Shown here in pieces: positions 7,458-17,118 of a stretch of DNA of 64,000 nucleotides (positions are counted from its first letter, which is position 1; the number at the start of each line of letters is the position of its first letter). The DNA is taken from assembly GCA_022448455.1 (NCBI GenBank), contig JAKUUR010000004.1:29608-93607 (forward strand). Reading direction: 5' to 3'. The translations under genes were made by a program, and so were the position numbers. The notes below the pieces were generated by a model. That model ran no database searches, was not told the origin of the DNA, and saw only the letters and a program-made list of their open reading frames with translations. The DNA comes from Candidatus Thioglobus autotrophicus (GTDB lineage: Bacteria > Pseudomonadota > Gammaproteobacteria > PS1 > Pseudothioglobaceae).

Positions 7458-8342
7458 ATGGAAAATGAAAAACCTGTAAAAAATACAAAACTGGTTGAAA
7501 AGTTTCAAAAGGACGGCTTTGTCGTTCTTGAAAATGCATTAACTGATTCTCAATTGTCGGCACTAAATAGTGACTTATCAATGTGGGTTGAAGAAAGCAG
7601 GAGAAATCAAAAGCCTTACGGAAAAATCATGGATGGAAGGCCACGTTTTGATTTACAAGTAGATACCCATTCATTTGAAAACCCTGCACTTAGAAGAATA
7701 ACTTCGCCTGCCGAAATTTCACAAGCATGCCTGGATGTAGTCAAAGATAACAAAGCGCTCGATCTAGTTAGTGAAATTTTTGGTCCAAATATAAAGCACT
7801 GGACAAATAAAATTAACCTTAAGCTTCCTGGCTCTGGCACGGAAGTGAAATTTCATCAGGATTTTCCTTTTGAGCCTCACTCAAATGAAGACTTAATGAC
7901 AGTTTTATTTTTTCTTGATGACGTGACACTTGAAAATGGGCCCTTAGAGGTGGTTGCTGGTTCACATCAGGGACCGCTTTATTCATTATGGCATGATGGT
8001 ATCTTTACGGGCGCCGTTTCTGAAGAAATTGAAGCCGACTGCAAAACCAAGGCTATTAGTTGTGTAGGCAAGGCAGGTTCGGCATGTTTAATGCATTCAA
8101 AATTAATGCATGGCTCTAAATCAAACAACACTAAATCACCGCGCTCTCTATTCATTGTGTCCTATACAGCAGAAGACGCGGTGAAGCTGACTAAAAACCC
8201 ACTCCCAAGTGAATTAGAAGGAATGATTGTTAGAGGGAAGAAAACTGGTACCATTCGTTCTAGTAACTATAGTATTGAGTTGCCAGAATACCCAAAAGAG
8301 GTATCGTTCTTCGATCAGCAATCTAAAATGAAGGATATTTGA
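7458..8342 (+). CDS. phytanoyl-CoA dioxygenase (PhyH) family Fe(II)/2OG oxygenase, PhnY-like role possible
   Basis: HxD facial-triad start FHQDFPFEPH, distal His MHSKLMHGSKSN, GPLEVVAGSHQGP typical of PhyH family; first gene of the phosphonate-type operon. Confidence 0.8.
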   Translation: MENEKPVKNTKLVEKFQKDGFVVLENALTDSQLSALNSDLSMWVEESRRNQKPYGKIMDGRPRFDLQVDTHSFENPALRRITSPAEISQACLDVVKDNKALDLVSEIFGPNIKHWTNKINLKLPGSGTEVKFHQDFPFEPHSNEDLMTVLFFLDDVTLENGPLEVVAGSHQGPLYSLWHDGIFTGAVSEEIEADCKTKAISCVGKAGSACLMHSKLMHGSKSNNTKSPRSLFIVSYTAEDAVKLTKNPLPSELEGMIVRGKKTGTIRSSNYSIELPEYPKEVSFFDQQSKMKDI

Positions 8343-8369
8343 TTATTTGTAATTTGTGAAGATATTAGA

Positions 8370-9515
8370 ATGTCACAGGAAATAGAACTCATAGTTAAAT
8401 TCTCTATTGTTGATGATGAGTTAGTCATTGAGTGGTATGACGGTAAGGAGAGTCGAGTATATGCCCACTGGTTGCGAGATCACTGCCAAATGCCAACCTC
8501 TATAAATACTAATAATGGGCAGCGCCTGTTTAGTGTAGTCGATATACCCGAAGAAACATACATCGAAAAAGCTTATAAGGATGAAAAAGGAAATGTCTGT
8601 GTTCTTTTTCAACCAGAAAATCATTTGTCTGTTTTTTCTCAGAGCTGGTTAAGAAAGAATTGTTATGACCTTAATCTTCACTTCGATGACAGAAGTGAAA
8701 GACAAAAAAAATTATGGCAAAAGGACACTTTTGAAGCCGGCCTTCCTTTTGTTGATTTCGAGTCCATGTGTAATGACGAGAGTGGCAAGTTAGATATGCT
8801 ACGTTTGATTAGAGATGTTGGTTTTGTTGTTCTTGAAAATGTACCAACTAAAGAAGGCCAAGTTTTAAAAGTTATTAGCGAGTTGGGTTACACTAGAGAG
8901 ACTAATTATGGCGCCTTATTTGAAGTAAGAACTGAAGTCAACCCTAATAACCTTGCGTATACCAATATGGGGCTCAGATCTCATACCGACAACCCTTACA
9001 GAGACCCTGTACCAACCGTTCAACTTTTGCATTGTCTAGAAAGCTCGACAGAGGGTGGAGACTCAGTGCTGGTGGATGGTTTTAAAGCTGCCACTGTTTT
9101 ACGTCAAGAAAGTAAAGAAGATTTTGATATCTTAACCAGCACTTGGATTAATTTCCGCTTTTCTGATGCCAAAACCGACCTCCGTTCTAGAGTGCCAATG
9201 ATTGAACTAAATGACAACAATGAAATTGTCAAAGTCAGATATAACAATCGCTCAATCGACACAATAAAATTGCCCACAAACAAAATACGGCATTTTTACA
9301 AAGCCTATCGTCATTGGAGTGAAATTATTGAAAGAGATGATTTGAAAATTATATTTAAGCTCTCAGAGGGTGATTTAATGCTATTGGACAACACCAGAAT
9401 AATGCATGCGAGGACAGCTTTTTCGAAAAAAGGTAAGCGTTATTTACAGGGTGCTTATACAGATTTAGATGGTCTTTACAGCCTACTCAACATCTTAGAA
9501 AATCGAAAAAAATGA
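8370..9515 (+). CDS. gamma-butyrobetaine-hydroxylase/TauD-type Fe(II)/2OG dioxygenase, TmpA-like
   Basis: N-terminal GBBH_N-like domain (VYAHWLRDHC...QRLFSVVDIP) plus TauD core: GLRSHTDNPYRDPVPTVQLLHCL (HxD) and LLDNTRIMHARTAF (distal His); overlaps the HD-oxygenase gene by 4 nt, as tmpA/tmpB pairs would. Confidence 0.78.
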   Translation: MSQEIELIVKFSIVDDELVIEWYDGKESRVYAHWLRDHCQMPTSINTNNGQRLFSVVDIPEETYIEKAYKDEKGNVCVLFQPENHLSVFSQSWLRKNCYDLNLHFDDRSERQKKLWQKDTFEAGLPFVDFESMCNDESGKLDMLRLIRDVGFVVLENVPTKEGQVLKVISELGYTRETNYGALFEVRTEVNPNNLAYTNMGLRSHTDNPYRDPVPTVQLLHCLESSTEGGDSVLVDGFKAATVLRQESKEDFDILTSTWINFRFSDAKTDLRSRVPMIELNDNNEIVKVRYNNRSIDTIKLPTNKIRHFYKAYRHWSEIIERDDLKIIFKLSEGDLMLLDNTRIMHARTAFSKKGKRYLQGAYTDLDGLYSLLNILENRKK

Positions 9516-10075
9516 CTAAGCTTAGTAGTCAAAATATTGTAAATCATATTGAAGATGTCTTTACTAGGCGCGGTGCAGAATCGTATTTGGGTGAAGACGT
9601 AACAATGGCACAGCATATGCTTCAAGCTGCGCAGTCTGCTGAAAAATCTGGAGCGGAGGATAGTTTAATTGTTGCTGCATTGCTCCATGATATTGGTCAC
9701 TTTAAAAACGAAATCCCTGAAACAGCTTTAGCAAAAGGTAAAAATAATTACCATGAAGAGGCGGGCGCTAATTTTTTAGAAGATTTTTTTCCAAGCTCAG
9801 TTGTTGAGCCTATTCGTCAACATGTTTCTGCAAAGCGTTATCTATGTGCAGTTAAGTCCGATTATTTTGAACATCTTTCAGCTGCATCAGTCCACAGTCT
9901 GAATTTGCAAGGTGGGCCGATGAATGAAGATGAGGTCAGAGAATTTGAAAAAAATGATTATTTAGAGCAGTGTTTAAAGTTGCGTTACTGGGATGATGAT
10001 GGTAAAGATCCAGAAAGGAAACATCCGCCATTTTCATACTACCGCCCGTTGATTGAGTCTCTAGTAAAACGCTAA
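9512..10075 (+). CDS. HD-domain mixed-valent di-iron oxygenase, PhnZ/TmpB-like
   Basis: YLGE (PhnZ Tyr24/Glu27-type gate), TMAQHML, LLHDIGHF, NYHEEAG, RQHVSAKRYL, RYWDDDGKD: His/Asp ligand order and KRY motif match PhnZ-class HD oxygenases. Confidence 0.82.
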   Translation: MTKLSSQNIVNHIEDVFTRRGAESYLGEDVTMAQHMLQAAQSAEKSGAEDSLIVAALLHDIGHFKNEIPETALAKGKNNYHEEAGANFLEDFFPSSVVEPIRQHVSAKRYLCAVKSDYFEHLSAASVHSLNLQGGPMNEDEVREFEKNDYLEQCLKLRYWDDDGKDPERKHPPFSYYRPLIESLVKR

Positions 10076-10103: not shown

Positions 10104-11402
10104 ATGATTGAAGAATTAATTTTCCCCGCCGGTTTGCGACTTTTTCACCGATGGCAAGAGGGCGATCCACAAGCCTCAAATCGATTAAAGGAAATATTTG
10201 ATAAAACCATTGATGGAGAATATGACGAGATCTTTGCGCTTAAACCTTCTCCAAACTCTGTTCAGGCTTCTGCTTCAATAAATTTATTTGTATTGGCTGT
10301 TTTGACAAGGTTTTACGGTCTTAATTCTGCAGAAGCCTATAAAGGAGATGCGAAACGTTACGTTCGGGTTTCACTTATGATTCGTAAGTTGCTTGGTCTG
10401 CCAAAGTTATATCTCGAGTGGCCGGTGTATGCATTTACTGCTGAAGCTCTTGGAGCAGTAATGATGTATCCTGTTGGAGCTCCTCCAGGAACTGATCCTG
10501 GCATCCCATTAATTAATAAAGATAATTGGCAAGACTTAAAAGCGCTAGAAATGGACAGTGAAATTCCCAAACTGTTTGATGAGATGTTAGAGTTTTATCA
10601 GGGTTTAACAGGGCTCGAACCTGTTTTGCACTTAACAGCGCCCTATAGCTTGGCGGCAGATATTTACGGGCAGTCAGAATTGGCAACAGCCCTAAATGAT
10701 GAACCTGATCATGTCAATGTATTGCTTGATCATTTGGTTGATAATGTATTGATGCCATGGGCAGATCATTTTTTTGAAAAATTTCCAAATGGTTGGCTAG
10801 AGTTGTCAGATGCTTCAGGCTCACCTTTTTTTATTGGTCCTGAAAATTGCAAAAATACAGCGATTCGTTCAATACTTAGATTAAAAAATGAAAATTCTTG
10901 GGGATCTCGAGTTTATGATGCCAACTATAGAGGTGACTACGTTACTCAAGCAAAAAAAACAAGTCGTTTATCAAGAAGAAGAAAAACAACTCAAAAGTCC
11001 TCCTCTAAAGAGCTTAGTTTTTCTGAATTATTTGCAGTAAAGCAGGCCGTTTGCACTGATTACGTTATGCGTCTTCATGACGACAGGATGCCTCTTAAAT
11101 TATACCAAGAACAAGCAATTAAGCACAATGTTCCATTATTTATAGGCATTGGTGCATCCCAAATTGATTGTAATTCCATTGCTGATATAAGTGCTACCAA
11201 AGAAGAAATAAAGCAGCTTTCACTGGAGTATGTGGAATCCATAAAAAAAGTTGCCCAAGTGATTAAAAAAAATGGGCACAAGTTACGTAAACCTCCCTGG
11301 CCGGGAGCAGTTTACTTCGAGGATGTTAGTGCTAATAGTAGCATGGAAATAATTGAAACCATTATAAGCACAGTGCTGAAAAAGGGCGCACTTAAAGGAT
11401 AA
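10104..11402 (+). CDS. uroporphyrinogen decarboxylase-superfamily protein (UroD/MtaA-like), substrate unknown
   Basis: UroD-like fold signatures (GAVMMYPVGAPPGTDPGIPLI, EPVLHLTAPYSLAADIYG, FPNGWLELSDASGSPFFIGPENC); carries a basic low-complexity insertion RLSRRRKTTQKSSSKELS. Confidence 0.55.
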   Translation: MIEELIFPAGLRLFHRWQEGDPQASNRLKEIFDKTIDGEYDEIFALKPSPNSVQASASINLFVLAVLTRFYGLNSAEAYKGDAKRYVRVSLMIRKLLGLPKLYLEWPVYAFTAEALGAVMMYPVGAPPGTDPGIPLINKDNWQDLKALEMDSEIPKLFDEMLEFYQGLTGLEPVLHLTAPYSLAADIYGQSELATALNDEPDHVNVLLDHLVDNVLMPWADHFFEKFPNGWLELSDASGSPFFIGPENCKNTAIRSILRLKNENSWGSRVYDANYRGDYVTQAKKTSRLSRRRKTTQKSSSKELSFSELFAVKQAVCTDYVMRLHDDRMPLKLYQEQAIKHNVPLFIGIGASQIDCNSIADISATKEEIKQLSLEYVESIKKVAQVIKKNGHKLRKPPWPGAVYFEDVSANSSMEIIETIISTVLKKGALKG

Positions 11403-11518: not shown

Positions 11519-11989
11519 ATGAACAACAATAAATTATTAATAATAAATGGCCCTGGACTCTCAGATTTAAGTAACCTCAATGAGATGGGTTATGGCCATC
11601 TAACATTGGACATGGTTCGAAAAAAATGTGCAGAAACTTGTGAAATTTTTGGCATTAAAATGGATTTTCGCCAAACTGATGATGAGACTGAGCTATCTCG
11701 TTTTTTAATAGAGGGTATTGAAGATTTTGATGCTTTAATAATTAACCCAGTTGGATATTCTCATGCGCCATCTATAGACTTTGCTATTTATAGTTCTGCA
11801 ATTAAAATGATCACTCAACAAAACAAGCCAGTTATTGAAGTGCATATTTCAAATATTTTTCAACAAGATGTTGAAAATACTAAGCCAATACAAGTTCCAG
11901 GAGGCGAAGTGGGTTTTGTAAGTGGGCTTGGCATTCATAGCTATGATCTTGCTATTAGGGCAGTTAACAAGAAACTTAGTAAAAATTAG
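11519..11989 (+). CDS. divergent type II 3-dehydroquinase-like protein (AroQ fold, catalytic residues partly lost)
   Basis: LLIINGPGLSDLSNLNEMGYGHLTLD, INPVGYSHAPSIDFAIYSS, VIEVHISNIFQQD, GFVSGLGIHSYDLAI; aligns along its length with the next ORF but lacks TREP Arg and ExFRH Arg residues. Confidence 0.7.
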   Translation: MNNNKLLIINGPGLSDLSNLNEMGYGHLTLDMVRKKCAETCEIFGIKMDFRQTDDETELSRFLIEGIEDFDALIINPVGYSHAPSIDFAIYSSAIKMITQQNKPVIEVHISNIFQQDVENTKPIQVPGGEVGFVSGLGIHSYDLAIRAVNKKLSKN

Positions 11990-12460
11990 ATGAATATATA
12001 CGTTATAAATGGTCCAAACATAAATCTTCTTGGCACTCGTGAGCCAGAAATTTATGGCAAGGAGACATTAAAAAGTATTTCAAAAAAATGCATAAAGCAG
12101 GGCTTGAGAGATGGGCATGATGTTAAATTTATGCAGTCTAATTACGAAGGAGAGATAGTAGGATGGATTCAGAATGCAATTATAGAAAAAGTAGATGCAA
12201 TTGTTATCAATGCTGCTGCTTATACCCACACATCGATAGCAATTCATGACGCATTGAAATCATACTCTGGTTTCAAAATAGAACTTCATATTTCGAACCC
12301 ACATTTGCGTGAAACTTTTAGACATGTTTCGTATATTTCTTCAGTGGTGGATGCTATTGTTGCTGGACTTGGTGCTGACGGCTATAGTCACGTGATCGAA
12401 TTATTGGCGGATCTACAAAAGCACTATAAGCAAAAAAATAAAAGCCTCAATACTTTCTAA
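11990..12460 (+). CDS. aroQ: type II 3-dehydroquinate dehydratase family protein
   Basis: VINGPNINLLGTREPEIYG, QSNYEGEIVGWIQ, INAAAYTHTSIAIHDAL, IELHISNPHLRETFRHVSYIS, GLGADGY. Confidence 0.85.
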   Translation: MNIYVINGPNINLLGTREPEIYGKETLKSISKKCIKQGLRDGHDVKFMQSNYEGEIVGWIQNAIIEKVDAIVINAAAYTHTSIAIHDALKSYSGFKIELHISNPHLRETFRHVSYISSVVDAIVAGLGADGYSHVIELLADLQKHYKQKNKSLNTF

Positions 12461-12464
12461 GAAA

Positions 12465-13367
12465 TTATCTCGTATTCGTAAATAACTCTCTACGCATCAT
12501 ATCAATGTGGTCTGTATGAACGCCACAGCAACCACCGATAAAATTTATACCACGCTTTTTCCAATTAGAAGAATATGCGCAATATTCATCTGCTGAAATT
12601 ACGTTATTGAATGTCCAGTCACCGTCTATCGAAGTTCCAGAATGTGCATAGACGCCGATATGGCCGTCCCACTTATTCTGAAGGATATCTAAGCATTGAT
12701 CAACATATTCAACCTCTGTGTGCATTATGTTTATTACATCTGGGTTGTATGATTTCAGCTCATGAATGGTGTCTTCTAGGCTATCTTTATCTAGCAAACA
12801 CATTTTTTGGGATTGGTCAGGCTCACAACTAAGTCCTACCCAAATAGGTAGTCCAGAAGCTTGAGCGGCTTTCAGTGTTGTCATCATCTGCTCTATGTCA
12901 ACCATCATTTCAAGCATTATTAAATCTGCACCCGCGTCTGCCATAATTTTAGCTTGTTGAGTAATCGAAGAATTTAGTTCACCTAAAGAAGGCTTGTTAT
13001 CAGTCCAGGTCCAGTAGGAAATGCCCCCAGCAACCAGAACATTGTCTTTATTCAAGTGCTCTCTTGCTTCGACAGCGAGTTTTACACCGCGTTCATTCAA
13101 AGCTTTAAAGTTATGATCTAGCTCGGCATCAGATAGAGCATGCTTATTCGTTGAAAAAGTGTTACTAATTACAATCTCAGCTCCTAGATTAATATATTCT
13201 TGATGAACTTGCCTTACAATGTCAGGATGGCTTAGGGCAGCTCCACCATTCCAAGCATTTTTGAGTTGAGGTACTCCTCTACGTTCAACTTCTGTGCCGG
13301 TTGCGCCATCTATTAGAATGCACTCTCCATCCTTAACTCTTTTCATTAAACTACTGTATCTGTCCAT
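12465..13367 (-). CDS. homocysteine S-methyltransferase family protein (BHMT-like)
   Basis: LIDGATGTEVERRGVP, SNTFSTNKHAL, Zn-ligand motif FIGGCCGVHTDHI. Confidence 0.85.
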   Translation of the reverse strand: MDRYSSLMKRVKDGECILIDGATGTEVERRGVPQLKNAWNGGAALSHPDIVRQVHQEYINLGAEIVISNTFSTNKHALSDAELDHNFKALNERGVKLAVEAREHLNKDNVLVAGGISYWTWTDNKPSLGELNSSITQQAKIMADAGADLIMLEMMVDIEQMMTTLKAAQASGLPIWVGLSCEPDQSQKMCLLDKDSLEDTIHELKSYNPDVINIMHTEVEYVDQCLDILQNKWDGHIGVYAHSGTSIDGDWTFNNVISADEYCAYSSNWKKRGINFIGGCCGVHTDHIDMMRRELFTNTR

Positions 13368-13392: not shown

Positions 13393-13566
13393 TTAAAGAA
13401 GAATAGGGTAAGCCTGTCGAATTGAATTGTCAATCTCACTAGTTAAATAATTTGGGTGATGTTCAAGTAAAACAACATCACTCCAACCTTCCTGAGTCAG
13501 GTGATAAAGAGTAGAAAGACCCCCAATTCCACCACCAATGACGACGACCCTAGTTCGCGATTTCAT
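13393..13566 (-). pseudogene. N-terminal remnant of a dimethylglycine/sarcosine dehydrogenase-like FAD oxidoreductase
   Basis: From internal ATG: MKSRTRVVVIGGGIGGLSTLYHLTQEGWSDVVLLEHHPNYLTS then stops after 57 aa; FAD GxGxxG motif intact, rest missing. Confidence 0.7.
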
Positions 13567-13776: not shown

Positions 13777-14529
13777 CTAAGCACTCTGACTAAATATATT
13801 TTCTGCCAGCACAAAATCTTCTTGGGTGTCAATTTCAGTCCATTTGAGTCCTGAAATATCCAAAGCATAAAATGGAACAAAGTTGGCAATTAACCTCTCA
13901 TACGCACCTTCGTAATATTCTTGATGATTTTGCTCGTCCTGCATCATTATTGCTAACTCTGTGAACAAAAGTTTTGCAGTTTCGCCACCAATTTTTTCAA
14001 TCCCTATGGATTCACCGATGGCATCTTTAGGATTAACTGTTTTACTGGCCTTGATAACTCTGTTTTGCTTATCAGTAATGACTTTCATTGCTTCAGCATC
14101 AAGATTAATGTTTTTATCAAGACATAAACAATTTTCATATTCGCATTCAATAAGTTTCGTCAGGATCTTTTTATCAAATACCACATCCGCATCAAACTTG
14201 ATAAAAGTTGAATCTTGAATCCAATCCCTGGTTAACATCAGAGAATACCCAGTATTCGTTTCAAAGTATCTTTCGTTGGTGACAAAATGGGCGTCTAAAT
14301 CCGGAAACTGTTTGTTTACATAATCCTTTATTTTTTCTTGTAAATAGCCAACCACAAAAACAACTTCGTTGATTCCACAACTCTGAATATGAGAAATCAT
14401 CATTTCCAGAATTGTATTACCACCTATCTCCAACAGACTTTTGGGACAATTATCGGTCAACGGCCTGATTCTTGAGCCGACTCCTGCTGCTAGAATGACT
14501 GCCTTAATTTTGCTGCTTTTATTTTTCAT
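13777..14529 (-). CDS. sugar-phosphate/phosphonate-type NTP nucleotidyltransferase (PntC N-domain/LicC-like)
   Basis: KAVILAAGVGSRIRPLTDNCPKSLLEIGG, FIKFDADVVFD. Confidence 0.82.
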   Translation of the reverse strand: MKNKSSKIKAVILAAGVGSRIRPLTDNCPKSLLEIGGNTILEMMISHIQSCGINEVVFVVGYLQEKIKDYVNKQFPDLDAHFVTNERYFETNTGYSLMLTRDWIQDSTFIKFDADVVFDKKILTKLIECEYENCLCLDKNINLDAEAMKVITDKQNRVIKASKTVNPKDAIGESIGIEKIGGETAKLLFTELAIMMQDEQNHQEYYEGAYERLIANFVPFYALDISGLKWTEIDTQEDFVLAENIFSQSA

Positions 14530-14531
14530 AT

Positions 14532-15092
14532 TTATAAACCAAACCTTTCCTTAATTATTTCGGCCACCCTCTCTGCGTTTAATTCTGTGTTATTAATCTT
14601 TAAATGGTTTTTGTTACGAAATTCACCTACATACGAGTTTAGGATATGCTCTCGATCTGTTTCTAACAATTCTTTTTCAGAGGCGTCAAAATCAATTTTT
14701 GATGGTTTGTATCGCAATCGGTTGGGCGATATGTTGCGCTTAAGCCTTTCCTCGGCACTGGCCTCAAGCTCCACATAACAGACTGTGGCCTGTGCCCGTT
14801 CAAATATGTTCACTATGGTATTGATAAAATAAGTATCATTACTTGAATCCAACTTCCAAACATAAGTAAAAATCAGCCCGTCCAAATCGCTTTTAGCCAC
14901 CTCTTCAAACATCTTAATTCGAAATTCAGTTACCAATTTTTTAAAACTTGGAGATTTCATATCGAAGTATGGCAAAATCACTTCGATCGTCATATGATTA
15001 TGAAATAATTTTAAATCGGTTATTTTCTCCAACTCCTGACCAACTGTCATTTTTCCAACAGCCAAAGGACCAAATATGACAACAAAGTTCAT
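14532..15092 (-). CDS. P-loop small-molecule kinase-like protein
   Basis: Degenerate Walker A IFGPLAVGKMTVGQEL; LID-like ERLKRNISPNRLRYKPSKID; located within the operon. Confidence 0.65.
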   Translation of the reverse strand: MNFVVIFGPLAVGKMTVGQELEKITDLKLFHNHMTIEVILPYFDMKSPSFKKLVTEFRIKMFEEVAKSDLDGLIFTYVWKLDSSNDTYFINTIVNIFERAQATVCYVELEASAEERLKRNISPNRLRYKPSKIDFDASEKELLETDREHILNSYVGEFRNKNHLKINNTELNAERVAEIIKERFGL

Positions 15093-15118
15093 ATTTACTT
15101 TTCCTCCTTCATAGATAA

Positions 15119-15895
15119 TTATTTTTCAAAAGAGATTTTTCGGTTGTGCTCTATCTGCCGTCCTCGCTGCATTCCACGAGCAAGACCGTAAAAAAGTTGA
15201 CTGACAGCGAACACCCAAAGCATCGGCACCAGTGCATCAAGTATCAAAGCCAGCGATAGCATAAAGATAAAAACGCCTTCGTTGAAGGCAATAATTTTCC
15301 GCTGTTCGTTAAAAAACCATCGTAAGTTTGCCAAAACGCCAAAGCCGAGACCTGCAGCATCTTCTTTTTTTGCGCCAGAATCTTGTATAGCAAGTTTTTC
15401 CAAGAAGCTACTATCTTGTGACATTTTTGTATAAATAGTGACGTATTTTACGTAGCCCCTCAGGGAGTAAAAAGCAACACCAGTAAACGCCAAAAGTACT
15501 GGTATGACGTCATTAGTCTGACTGTAAGCGGCGTATCCTACCGCTCCAAACCATAGGGTAACCTGGATCTGGTCGCTCAACTTGTCATAAAAACCACCTG
15601 ATAACGAGGTTGCTTTTCGATAACGCGCCATTTGCCCATCCATGCAATCAAAAACATGACTCAAATGGATAAGCACTGCGGCACTGACAAAATTTTCACT
15701 GCCGCCAATTACAATAAGTAGCGACGCTATGATTGCAGTAATAAAAGAAATGAGCGTGATCAAGTTCGGCGTTAACCATTTAATATCGACAACGAGATAA
15801 TTAAGCGCAATAGCCAGAGGTGATGTGACAAAAGAAGACCACCATTCGTCATCTTTTGTTTTCGTCGCCCATAAGCGAGTCAGTTTTTCATTCAA
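15119..15895 (-). CDS. CDP-alcohol phosphatidyltransferase family protein (PntP-like candidate)
   Basis: Perfect CDP-AP motif DCMDGQMARYRKATSLSGGFYDKLSDQ (D-x2-DG-x2-AR-x8-G-x3-D-x3-D); multi-TM. Confidence 0.88.
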   Translation of the reverse strand: MNEKLTRLWATKTKDDEWWSSFVTSPLAIALNYLVVDIKWLTPNLITLISFITAIIASLLIVIGGSENFVSAAVLIHLSHVFDCMDGQMARYRKATSLSGGFYDKLSDQIQVTLWFGAVGYAAYSQTNDVIPVLLAFTGVAFYSLRGYVKYVTIYTKMSQDSSFLEKLAIQDSGAKKEDAAGLGFGVLANLRWFFNEQRKIIAFNEGVFIFMLSLALILDALVPMLWVFAVSQLFYGLARGMQRGRQIEHNRKISFEK

Positions 15896-17118
15896 AGTCT
15901 CTCTTCCGATATCAGAAGATCGGCACTGATTTTTTCAATTTCAGGAATGAGTTTCGGGATTTGACTGCTGGTTCCAACAATACGTGTTTTCCTAACCAGT
16001 TCAACACTGGGTAATATTTTTCCAATTGGCTCAAAACTAACCAATACCTGCTCCAGAGAATCCAAAAAATATTGGATATCAGTAAAAGACAATTCCCCTA
16101 TATTTCCAACCTGAAAAACACGATTCTTAAAGCAACCTTTTCCCTCGTAGATAATAATGGATTTTTCGCGCAATTTATGCCGCAAAACACCAACATCGAT
16201 ATGCGATGGAGTATAAACAGTGGTTAATACCGAGCACATGTCTTTCTGATTAATTACAAACTTAAGCCCCATACTCAGCATACCTTGTCTTAACATATTG
16301 GCCTTGTCTCTCAGATCGGCATAGCGATTTACAACACCTTCGTTGAGTATATTGGATAGCGCTTGCTCTAGAGCATAGAACAAGTGTACCGCTGGTGTAT
16401 TCGGTGTCTGCGAAAAAGTTCTTATAAAATCATAAAATTTATACAAATTTAGATACATCGATTTAATGGCAAGAGTCTTTAATTTCTCAAACTCTTGAGT
16501 TTGACCAACCACAAAAGACAATCCAGGATAAGAGCCGATTGCCTTTGAACTCGAACTTGAGCAAAATGCAATGTGGCATTTTTCCAGATCAATTACTTCT
16601 GCGCCTGCGCTGCTTACACAGTCGACAATAAATATCGCACCATGTGATTTTGCAAGTTTGCCGATTTCTTCCAAAGGATTTAACATGCCAGAACTGGTTT
16701 CATGGTGAACCATGGCAATGACATCAATCTTCTGTATCTGCAAAAAATCTTCAATTTTTTTCAGGCTCAGTTTTTCTCCCCAGTTAAATTCCAGTAAAAA
16801 AGTATTTTCATTATGAATCTTAGATATGTTGTGTAGTCTTTCGCCAAACTCGCCATTAGACAGAATAAGAATATTCTTCCTTTCAACAACTGAAGACAAC
16901 ATTGATTCATTGGCGGCAGTTCCCGAGCCGGTAATGACTACCGCTCGATAATCCGCTGTATTCTTTATCTCGAAGAGTGTGAGTAATTTATTCTCAATAC
17001 TTTGTAACAAATAATCAAAATCGATTTCACGATGACAAATATCTTGTTTACAAATAGCCTCTCGTACATTCTGAGCCACATTGACTGGGCCCGGTGTAAA
17101 TAACAAATGTTGATTCAC
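15892..17118 (-). CDS. class V PLP aminotransferase, 2-aminoethylphosphonate--pyruvate transaminase-like (PhnW/PntC C-domain)
   Basis: LLFTPGPVNVAQNVREAI, VITGSGTAANE, VHHETSSGMLNPLEEIG, PLP-Lys SSSSSKAIGSYPGLSFVVG, FQVGNIGELS; 4-nt overlap with downstream CDP-AP gene. Confidence 0.78.
   Translation of the reverse strand: MNQHLLFTPGPVNVAQNVREAICKQDICHREIDFDYLLQSIENKLLTLFEIKNTADYRAVVITGSGTAANESMLSSVVERKNILILSNGEFGERLHNISKIHNENTFLLEFNWGEKLSLKKIEDFLQIQKIDVIAMVHHETSSGMLNPLEEIGKLAKSHGAIFIVDCVSSAGAEVIDLEKCHIAFCSSSSSKAIGSYPGLSFVVGQTQEFEKLKTLAIKSMYLNLYKFYDFIRTFSQTPNTPAVHLFYALEQALSNILNEGVVNRYADLRDKANMLRQGMLSMGLKFVINQKDMCSVLTTVYTPSHIDVGVLRHKLREKSIIIYEGKGCFKNRVFQVGNIGELSFTDIQYFLDSLEQVLVSFEPIGKILPSVELVRKTRIVGTSSQIPKLIPEIEKISADLLISEERL

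Follow-up and report, generated by a model that had tools for sequence, protein, structure and literature searches.

The oxygenases TmpA and TmpB convert 2-trimethylaminoethylphosphonate (TMAEP) to glycine betaine and phosphate. Phosphonate binding by TmpA involves N187, N287 and R288 (PMC9296572), and the roles of the YxxE loop and the metal ligands in the HD-type partner have been described (PMC8177086). Fusion of a hydroxylase with a C-P oxygenase has a fungal precedent in PhoF, which combines PhnY and PhnZ (PMC10574752). We analysed a stretch of 64,000 nucleotides (the window) from a Candidatus Thioglobus autotrophicus assembly of 1.71 Mb in 70 contigs, 95% complete, whose close relatives are Thioglobaceae. 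Judging from the sequence, positions 8370-10075 very probably encode a TmpA/TmpB pathway that releases phosphate and glycine betaine from TMAEP. Oxidative C-P cleavage by such a pair in a sulfur oxidiser was the central proposal of an earlier note on this DNA, and it is upheld by phylogeny, active-site residues, gene fusion and conserved gene order.

The three open reading frames of the note were recovered with the same coordinates and strands, and tmpA and tmpB overlap by 4 bases (ATGA). All of its motifs were found as well (HQD...MHGS, HTD...IMHAR, YLGE, HDIGH, HVSAKRY and WDDD, the last of which reads YWDDD). The PhyH, TmpA-like and TmpB-like proteins keep about 68-90% identity to those of relatives, and therefore PhyH, tmpA and tmpB are considered real genes.

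Table 1. Features of the tmpAB locus and its surroundings in the window.
Feature	Position	Strand	Details
PhyH-family 2OG oxygenase gene	7458..8342	+	294 aa; PhyH 100 bits (Pfam)
tmpA orthologue (Fe(II)/2OG hydroxylase, predicted)	8370..9515	+	381 aa; TauD 153 and GBBH-like_N 34 bits (Pfam)
tmpB orthologue (HD-domain mixed-valent diiron oxygenase, predicted)	9512..10075	+	187 aa; HD 35 bits (Pfam)
UROD/MtaA-like protein gene	10104..11402	+	directly 3' of tmpB; candidate for a third gene in the tmpAB unit
Homocysteine S-methyltransferase family gene (BHMT/MtgE-like)	12465..13367	-	PF02574 169 bits; BHMT 1umy 1.5e-16
DMGDH-like gene remnant	13456..13566	-	37 codons; 86% identity to the start of the L042 gene

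Relationships of the tmpA and tmpB products

The HD protein finds TmpB as its top match in a PDB search (6npa, 2.5e-59; PhnZ, 1.6e-34), with 52% identity to TmpB versus 39% to PhnZ. In the phylogenetic tree, the Thioglobaceae proteins join all alphaproteobacterial TmpBs with a support of 100/99 as their own sister clade, and the PhnZ types lie outside. This phylogeny, which the earlier note had suggested as a check, places the protein with TmpB and not outside the PhnZ/TmpB group. The YxxE loop and the diiron ligands (H..HD..H..H..D) are all kept in the alignment. Against the NCBIfam TmpB model NF049941, the protein reaches 270 bits, under the cut-off of 300 but still the best score of all models; this cut-off was set on lineages other than Thioglobaceae, and the assignment to TmpB follows from the tree and the residues. 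The TmpB orthologue is expected to cleave the C-P bond, yielding glycine betaine and phosphate.

The top PDB match of the TmpA-like protein is TmpA (6npb, 4.8e-96), and human gamma-butyrobetaine hydroxylase (GBBH) follows at 8e-56. Maximum-likelihood analysis unites the Thioglobaceae proteins with the set of HD-linked TmpAs, 6npb among them (support 100/98); within this group the Thioglobaceae are again a separate clade, sister to the alphaproteobacterial TmpAs. Human BBOX and the proteins without an HD neighbour fall outside this group; one HD-linked row, L102, lies just outside it. Asn187, Asn287 and Arg288 are all present in the aligned window protein. The motif around residues 287 and 288 reads NNRS in all 24 Thioglobaceae rows and NNRS or NARS in all 15 other HD-linked rows, and occurs in none of the 15 rows without an HD neighbour. 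Arginine alone at position 288 is seen in 1 of these 15 rows and in three second paralogues (SPRL). The TmpA orthologue is thus expected to hydroxylate TMAEP to (R)-1-hydroxy-2-trimethylaminoethylphosphonate.

The two genes are also tightly coupled across the family. The HD protein is present in 24 of the 83 family genomes, including 23 of the 29 genomes of the window's genus, and tmpA adjoins its gene in the Thioglobaceae wherever the contig allows. Furthermore, in three genomes (G014, G028 and G030) tmpA and tmpB are joined through a short linker into a single open reading frame of 569-587 aa; no earlier report of a TmpA-TmpB fusion was found in a literature search of limited coverage. A second, divergent TmpA-like paralogue with the SPRL motif is located a few kb downstream in the relatives with fused proteins (L035, L038 and L039).

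Alternatively, both proteins could be orthologues whose substrate has shifted, for instance to a longer aminoalkylphosphonate or to a different N-methylated one. The separate Thioglobaceae clades, the TmpB score under the equivalog cut-off and the differing neighbours, notably the UROD-like gene, are consistent with such a shift. Against it, the phosphonate-binding residues match those of TmpA, as do Tyr, Phe, Tyr and Tyr at the aromatic positions of the window protein in the alignment. We consider a shift unlikely, and TMAEP is kept as the predicted substrate.

Alternative roles of the two 2OG oxygenases

The earlier note had two hydroxylases serving one PhnZ/TmpB-type lyase, with the PhyH protein acting as PhnY on 2-aminoethylphosphonate (AEP) and TmpA acting on TMAEP. 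The gene order agrees with this model: 27 bases separate the PhyH gene from tmpA downstream of it, and tmpA is preceded by PhyH in 20 of 24 Thioglobaceae loci, in two of them with an intervening open reading frame. However, PhyH is missing at all 13 alphaproteobacterial tmpAB loci and is unlinked to tmpAB in G014, G028 and G047, and no orthologue was found in G030. In G014 and G028, which carry the fused TmpAB, PhyH stands alone near an ftsK-like gene, and the G047 homologue (40%) is located away from tmpAB. PhyH homologues with 44-53% identity reside in other clusters without HD genes. The PhyH protein scores 33 bits against the NCBIfam PhnY model, which has a cut-off of 500 and represents the methylphosphonate PhnY only. 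A search with the PhyH profile found no member in the roughly 5 kb around each of 33 TmpB/PhnZ loci, and the homologue loci together with the TmpB/PhnZ loci revealed no link of PhyH to an HD oxygenase outside Thioglobaceae. The predicted structure of PhyH (pLDDT 62) was left out of the evidence. Because PhyH is separable from tmpAB and has homologues in other clusters, it is probably an independent neighbour with its own substrate, outside the C-P pathway. Linkage and family evidence lead us to reject PhyH as PhnY, and the supply of one lyase by two hydroxylases is quite improbable.

In other proteobacteria, the PhyH homologues are found amid genes for amino-acid-type ABC transporters and for LysR, DUF1028-like, RidA-like and flavin-monooxygenase-like proteins, or amid unrelated genes; these names were mostly read from the sequences and not from profile searches. 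A PhyH homologue recurs with an amino-acid-type ABC transporter, LysR and a flavin-monooxygenase-like gene at three loci of other Gammaproteobacteria (L300, L301 and L302).

With NCBIfam, the TmpA-like protein scores 436 bits against the TmpA model NF049936, above the cut-off of 400, and its top match is the GBBH model TIGR02409 (536 bits, also above cut-off). Since five HD-linked TmpAs elsewhere score 514-541 with TIGR02409, this rank does not separate TmpA from GBBH. The zinc cysteines (CxC..C) are absent in all 24 Thioglobaceae rows and in 14 of 15 other HD-linked rows, and present in 12 of 15 rows without an HD neighbour; the earlier note was correct that the GBBH_N zinc motif is missing, but the trait is general to TmpAs. 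A true gamma-butyrobetaine hydroxylase of carnitine synthesis, leaving another role to the HD protein, would account for the top NCBIfam rank, but is hardly credible for a protein that groups with TmpA and apart from the GBBH rows lacking an HD neighbour, possesses Arg288 without the zinc cysteines, and is encoded by a gene that overlaps tmpB here and is fused to it in relatives.

The UROD/MtaA-like gene and other neighbours

The UROD-like protein has no Pfam match. Its gene occurs in 7 of the 83 family genomes, directly 3' of tmpB in all seven, including the three fused loci; one of the seven loci is cut by a contig end. A 47% paralogue is encoded elsewhere in the genome. MtaA and UroD are the top Foldseek matches of the AlphaFold model (pLDDT 71) and are weakly indicated as the closest folds; a UROD function was not adopted, as the E values of 0.003-0.03 are too weak for assigning chemistry.

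A scan of named genomes yielded a wider family of 80 loci (L201-L280, 41-92%). A MocR-type regulator is found at 47 of the 80, DUF47 with a PiT phosphate transporter at 15, PhnW-like genes at 8, PhnA-like, PhnY-like and TmpA-type genes at 6 each, and MTTB with DMGDH at 2; since closely related Rhodobacteraceae contribute many of the loci, the counts are not independent of one another. A stretch of 8 kb in one actinomycetal MAG (L210) contains both a family member and a TmpA/TmpB-like pair. The clade of the window's protein is separate from the phnWAY-linked clade. Flanking genes of 493, 218 and 349 aa were considered as MtgBCD and rejected, being the MocR-type regulator, the DUF47 protein and the PiT transporter.

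The UROD-like gene is a better-linked partner of tmpAB than PhyH. Tentatively, its product may belong to an undescribed family in (methyl)aminophosphonate/betaine catabolism, possibly in methyl transfer, and form a three-gene unit with tmpAB. A protein family that lacks a Pfam model accompanies tmpAB and, elsewhere, AEP-degradation genes, which opens it to tests as a new component of the pathway.

Further downstream, the S-methyltransferase gene is retained close to tmpAB in some members of the genus. The adjacent remnant corresponds to residues 1-37 of the 811-aa DMGDH-like gene of L042; in relatives the DMGDH-like gene is intact beside the S-methyltransferase, and distant paralogues (about 30-38%) exist elsewhere in the genome. 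Two adjacent type II dehydroquinase genes occupy 11519-12460. The first (11519-11989) may have another function, since its scores fall well short of the family cut-offs and arginines of the second are missing from it in the alignment. On the minus strand, 13777-17118 encodes an NTP transferase, a kinase-like protein, a CDP-alcohol phosphatidyltransferase and a PhnW/AepZ-like aminotransferase, an island that was not seen at the same place in relatives. Phosphonate synthesis by this island was rejected: no PepM was found in the assembly, and the best PF13714 match resembles a methylisocitrate lyase and has citrate-synthase-like and PrpD-like genes next to it.

Predicted pathway and comparison with known systems

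In the proposed pathway, TMAEP would be imported and hydroxylated at C1 by TmpA (Fe(II)/2OG). TmpB, a diiron oxygenase of the HD type (Fe(II)/Fe(III)), would then use O2 to split the C-P bond, releasing glycine betaine and phosphate. The phosphate would enter P metabolism, and the glycine betaine could either serve as an osmolyte or be demethylated by DMGDH-like enzymes and methyltransferases of the MTTB type. The genome encodes five MTTB proteins, and one of the DMGDH-like genes located elsewhere in it adjoins an MTTB gene on contig C70. MtgBCD-type glycine betaine demethylation is known in marine bacteria, with mtgC reads assigned to Candidatus Thioglobus (PMC12478193). Together, these genes and reads make demethylation a plausible fate for TmpB-derived glycine betaine. 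No PhnD-type phosphonate-binding protein that would explain the uptake of TMAEP was found in the genome; import by a betaine transporter is our guess. PhnJ was not detected in the genome, with a positive E. coli control. Pho-box control was discarded, as the 18 degenerate matches are at chance level (17.9 expected) and none lies upstream of the operon. With this locus, the known TmpA/TmpB pathway extends to the arctic96BD-19-type Thioglobaceae, a group common in oceans worldwide, where it would couple the release of P from phosphonates to the use of glycine betaine by mixotrophic sulfur oxidisers.

The window pair shares with TmpA/TmpB of Leisingera caerulea (PDB 6npb, 6npa) the pairing, the tmpA-tmpB order, the phosphonate- and diiron-binding residues and the missing zinc cysteines. 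It differs in belonging to a separate gammaproteobacterial clade (52% identity for TmpB), in having PhyH upstream and the UROD-like gene downstream, and in the single fused frame of three relatives. PhnY/PhnZ, which oxidise AEP or methylphosphonate, likewise combine an HD-type diiron oxygenase bearing YxxE with a 2OG partner, whereas the HD protein of the window groups with TmpB and its coupled partner has the GBBH fold, not that of PhyH. Gamma-butyrobetaine hydroxylase (BBOX) has the same fold, Fe ligands and aromatic positions as the window protein, which in contrast lacks the zinc cysteines and possesses the NNRS motif with Arg288 and an HD partner gene. Fungal PhoF fuses PhnY with PhnZ, whereas TmpA and TmpB are fused, and only in relatives of the window. 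In conclusion, the window pair is a further member of the known TmpA/TmpB pathway.
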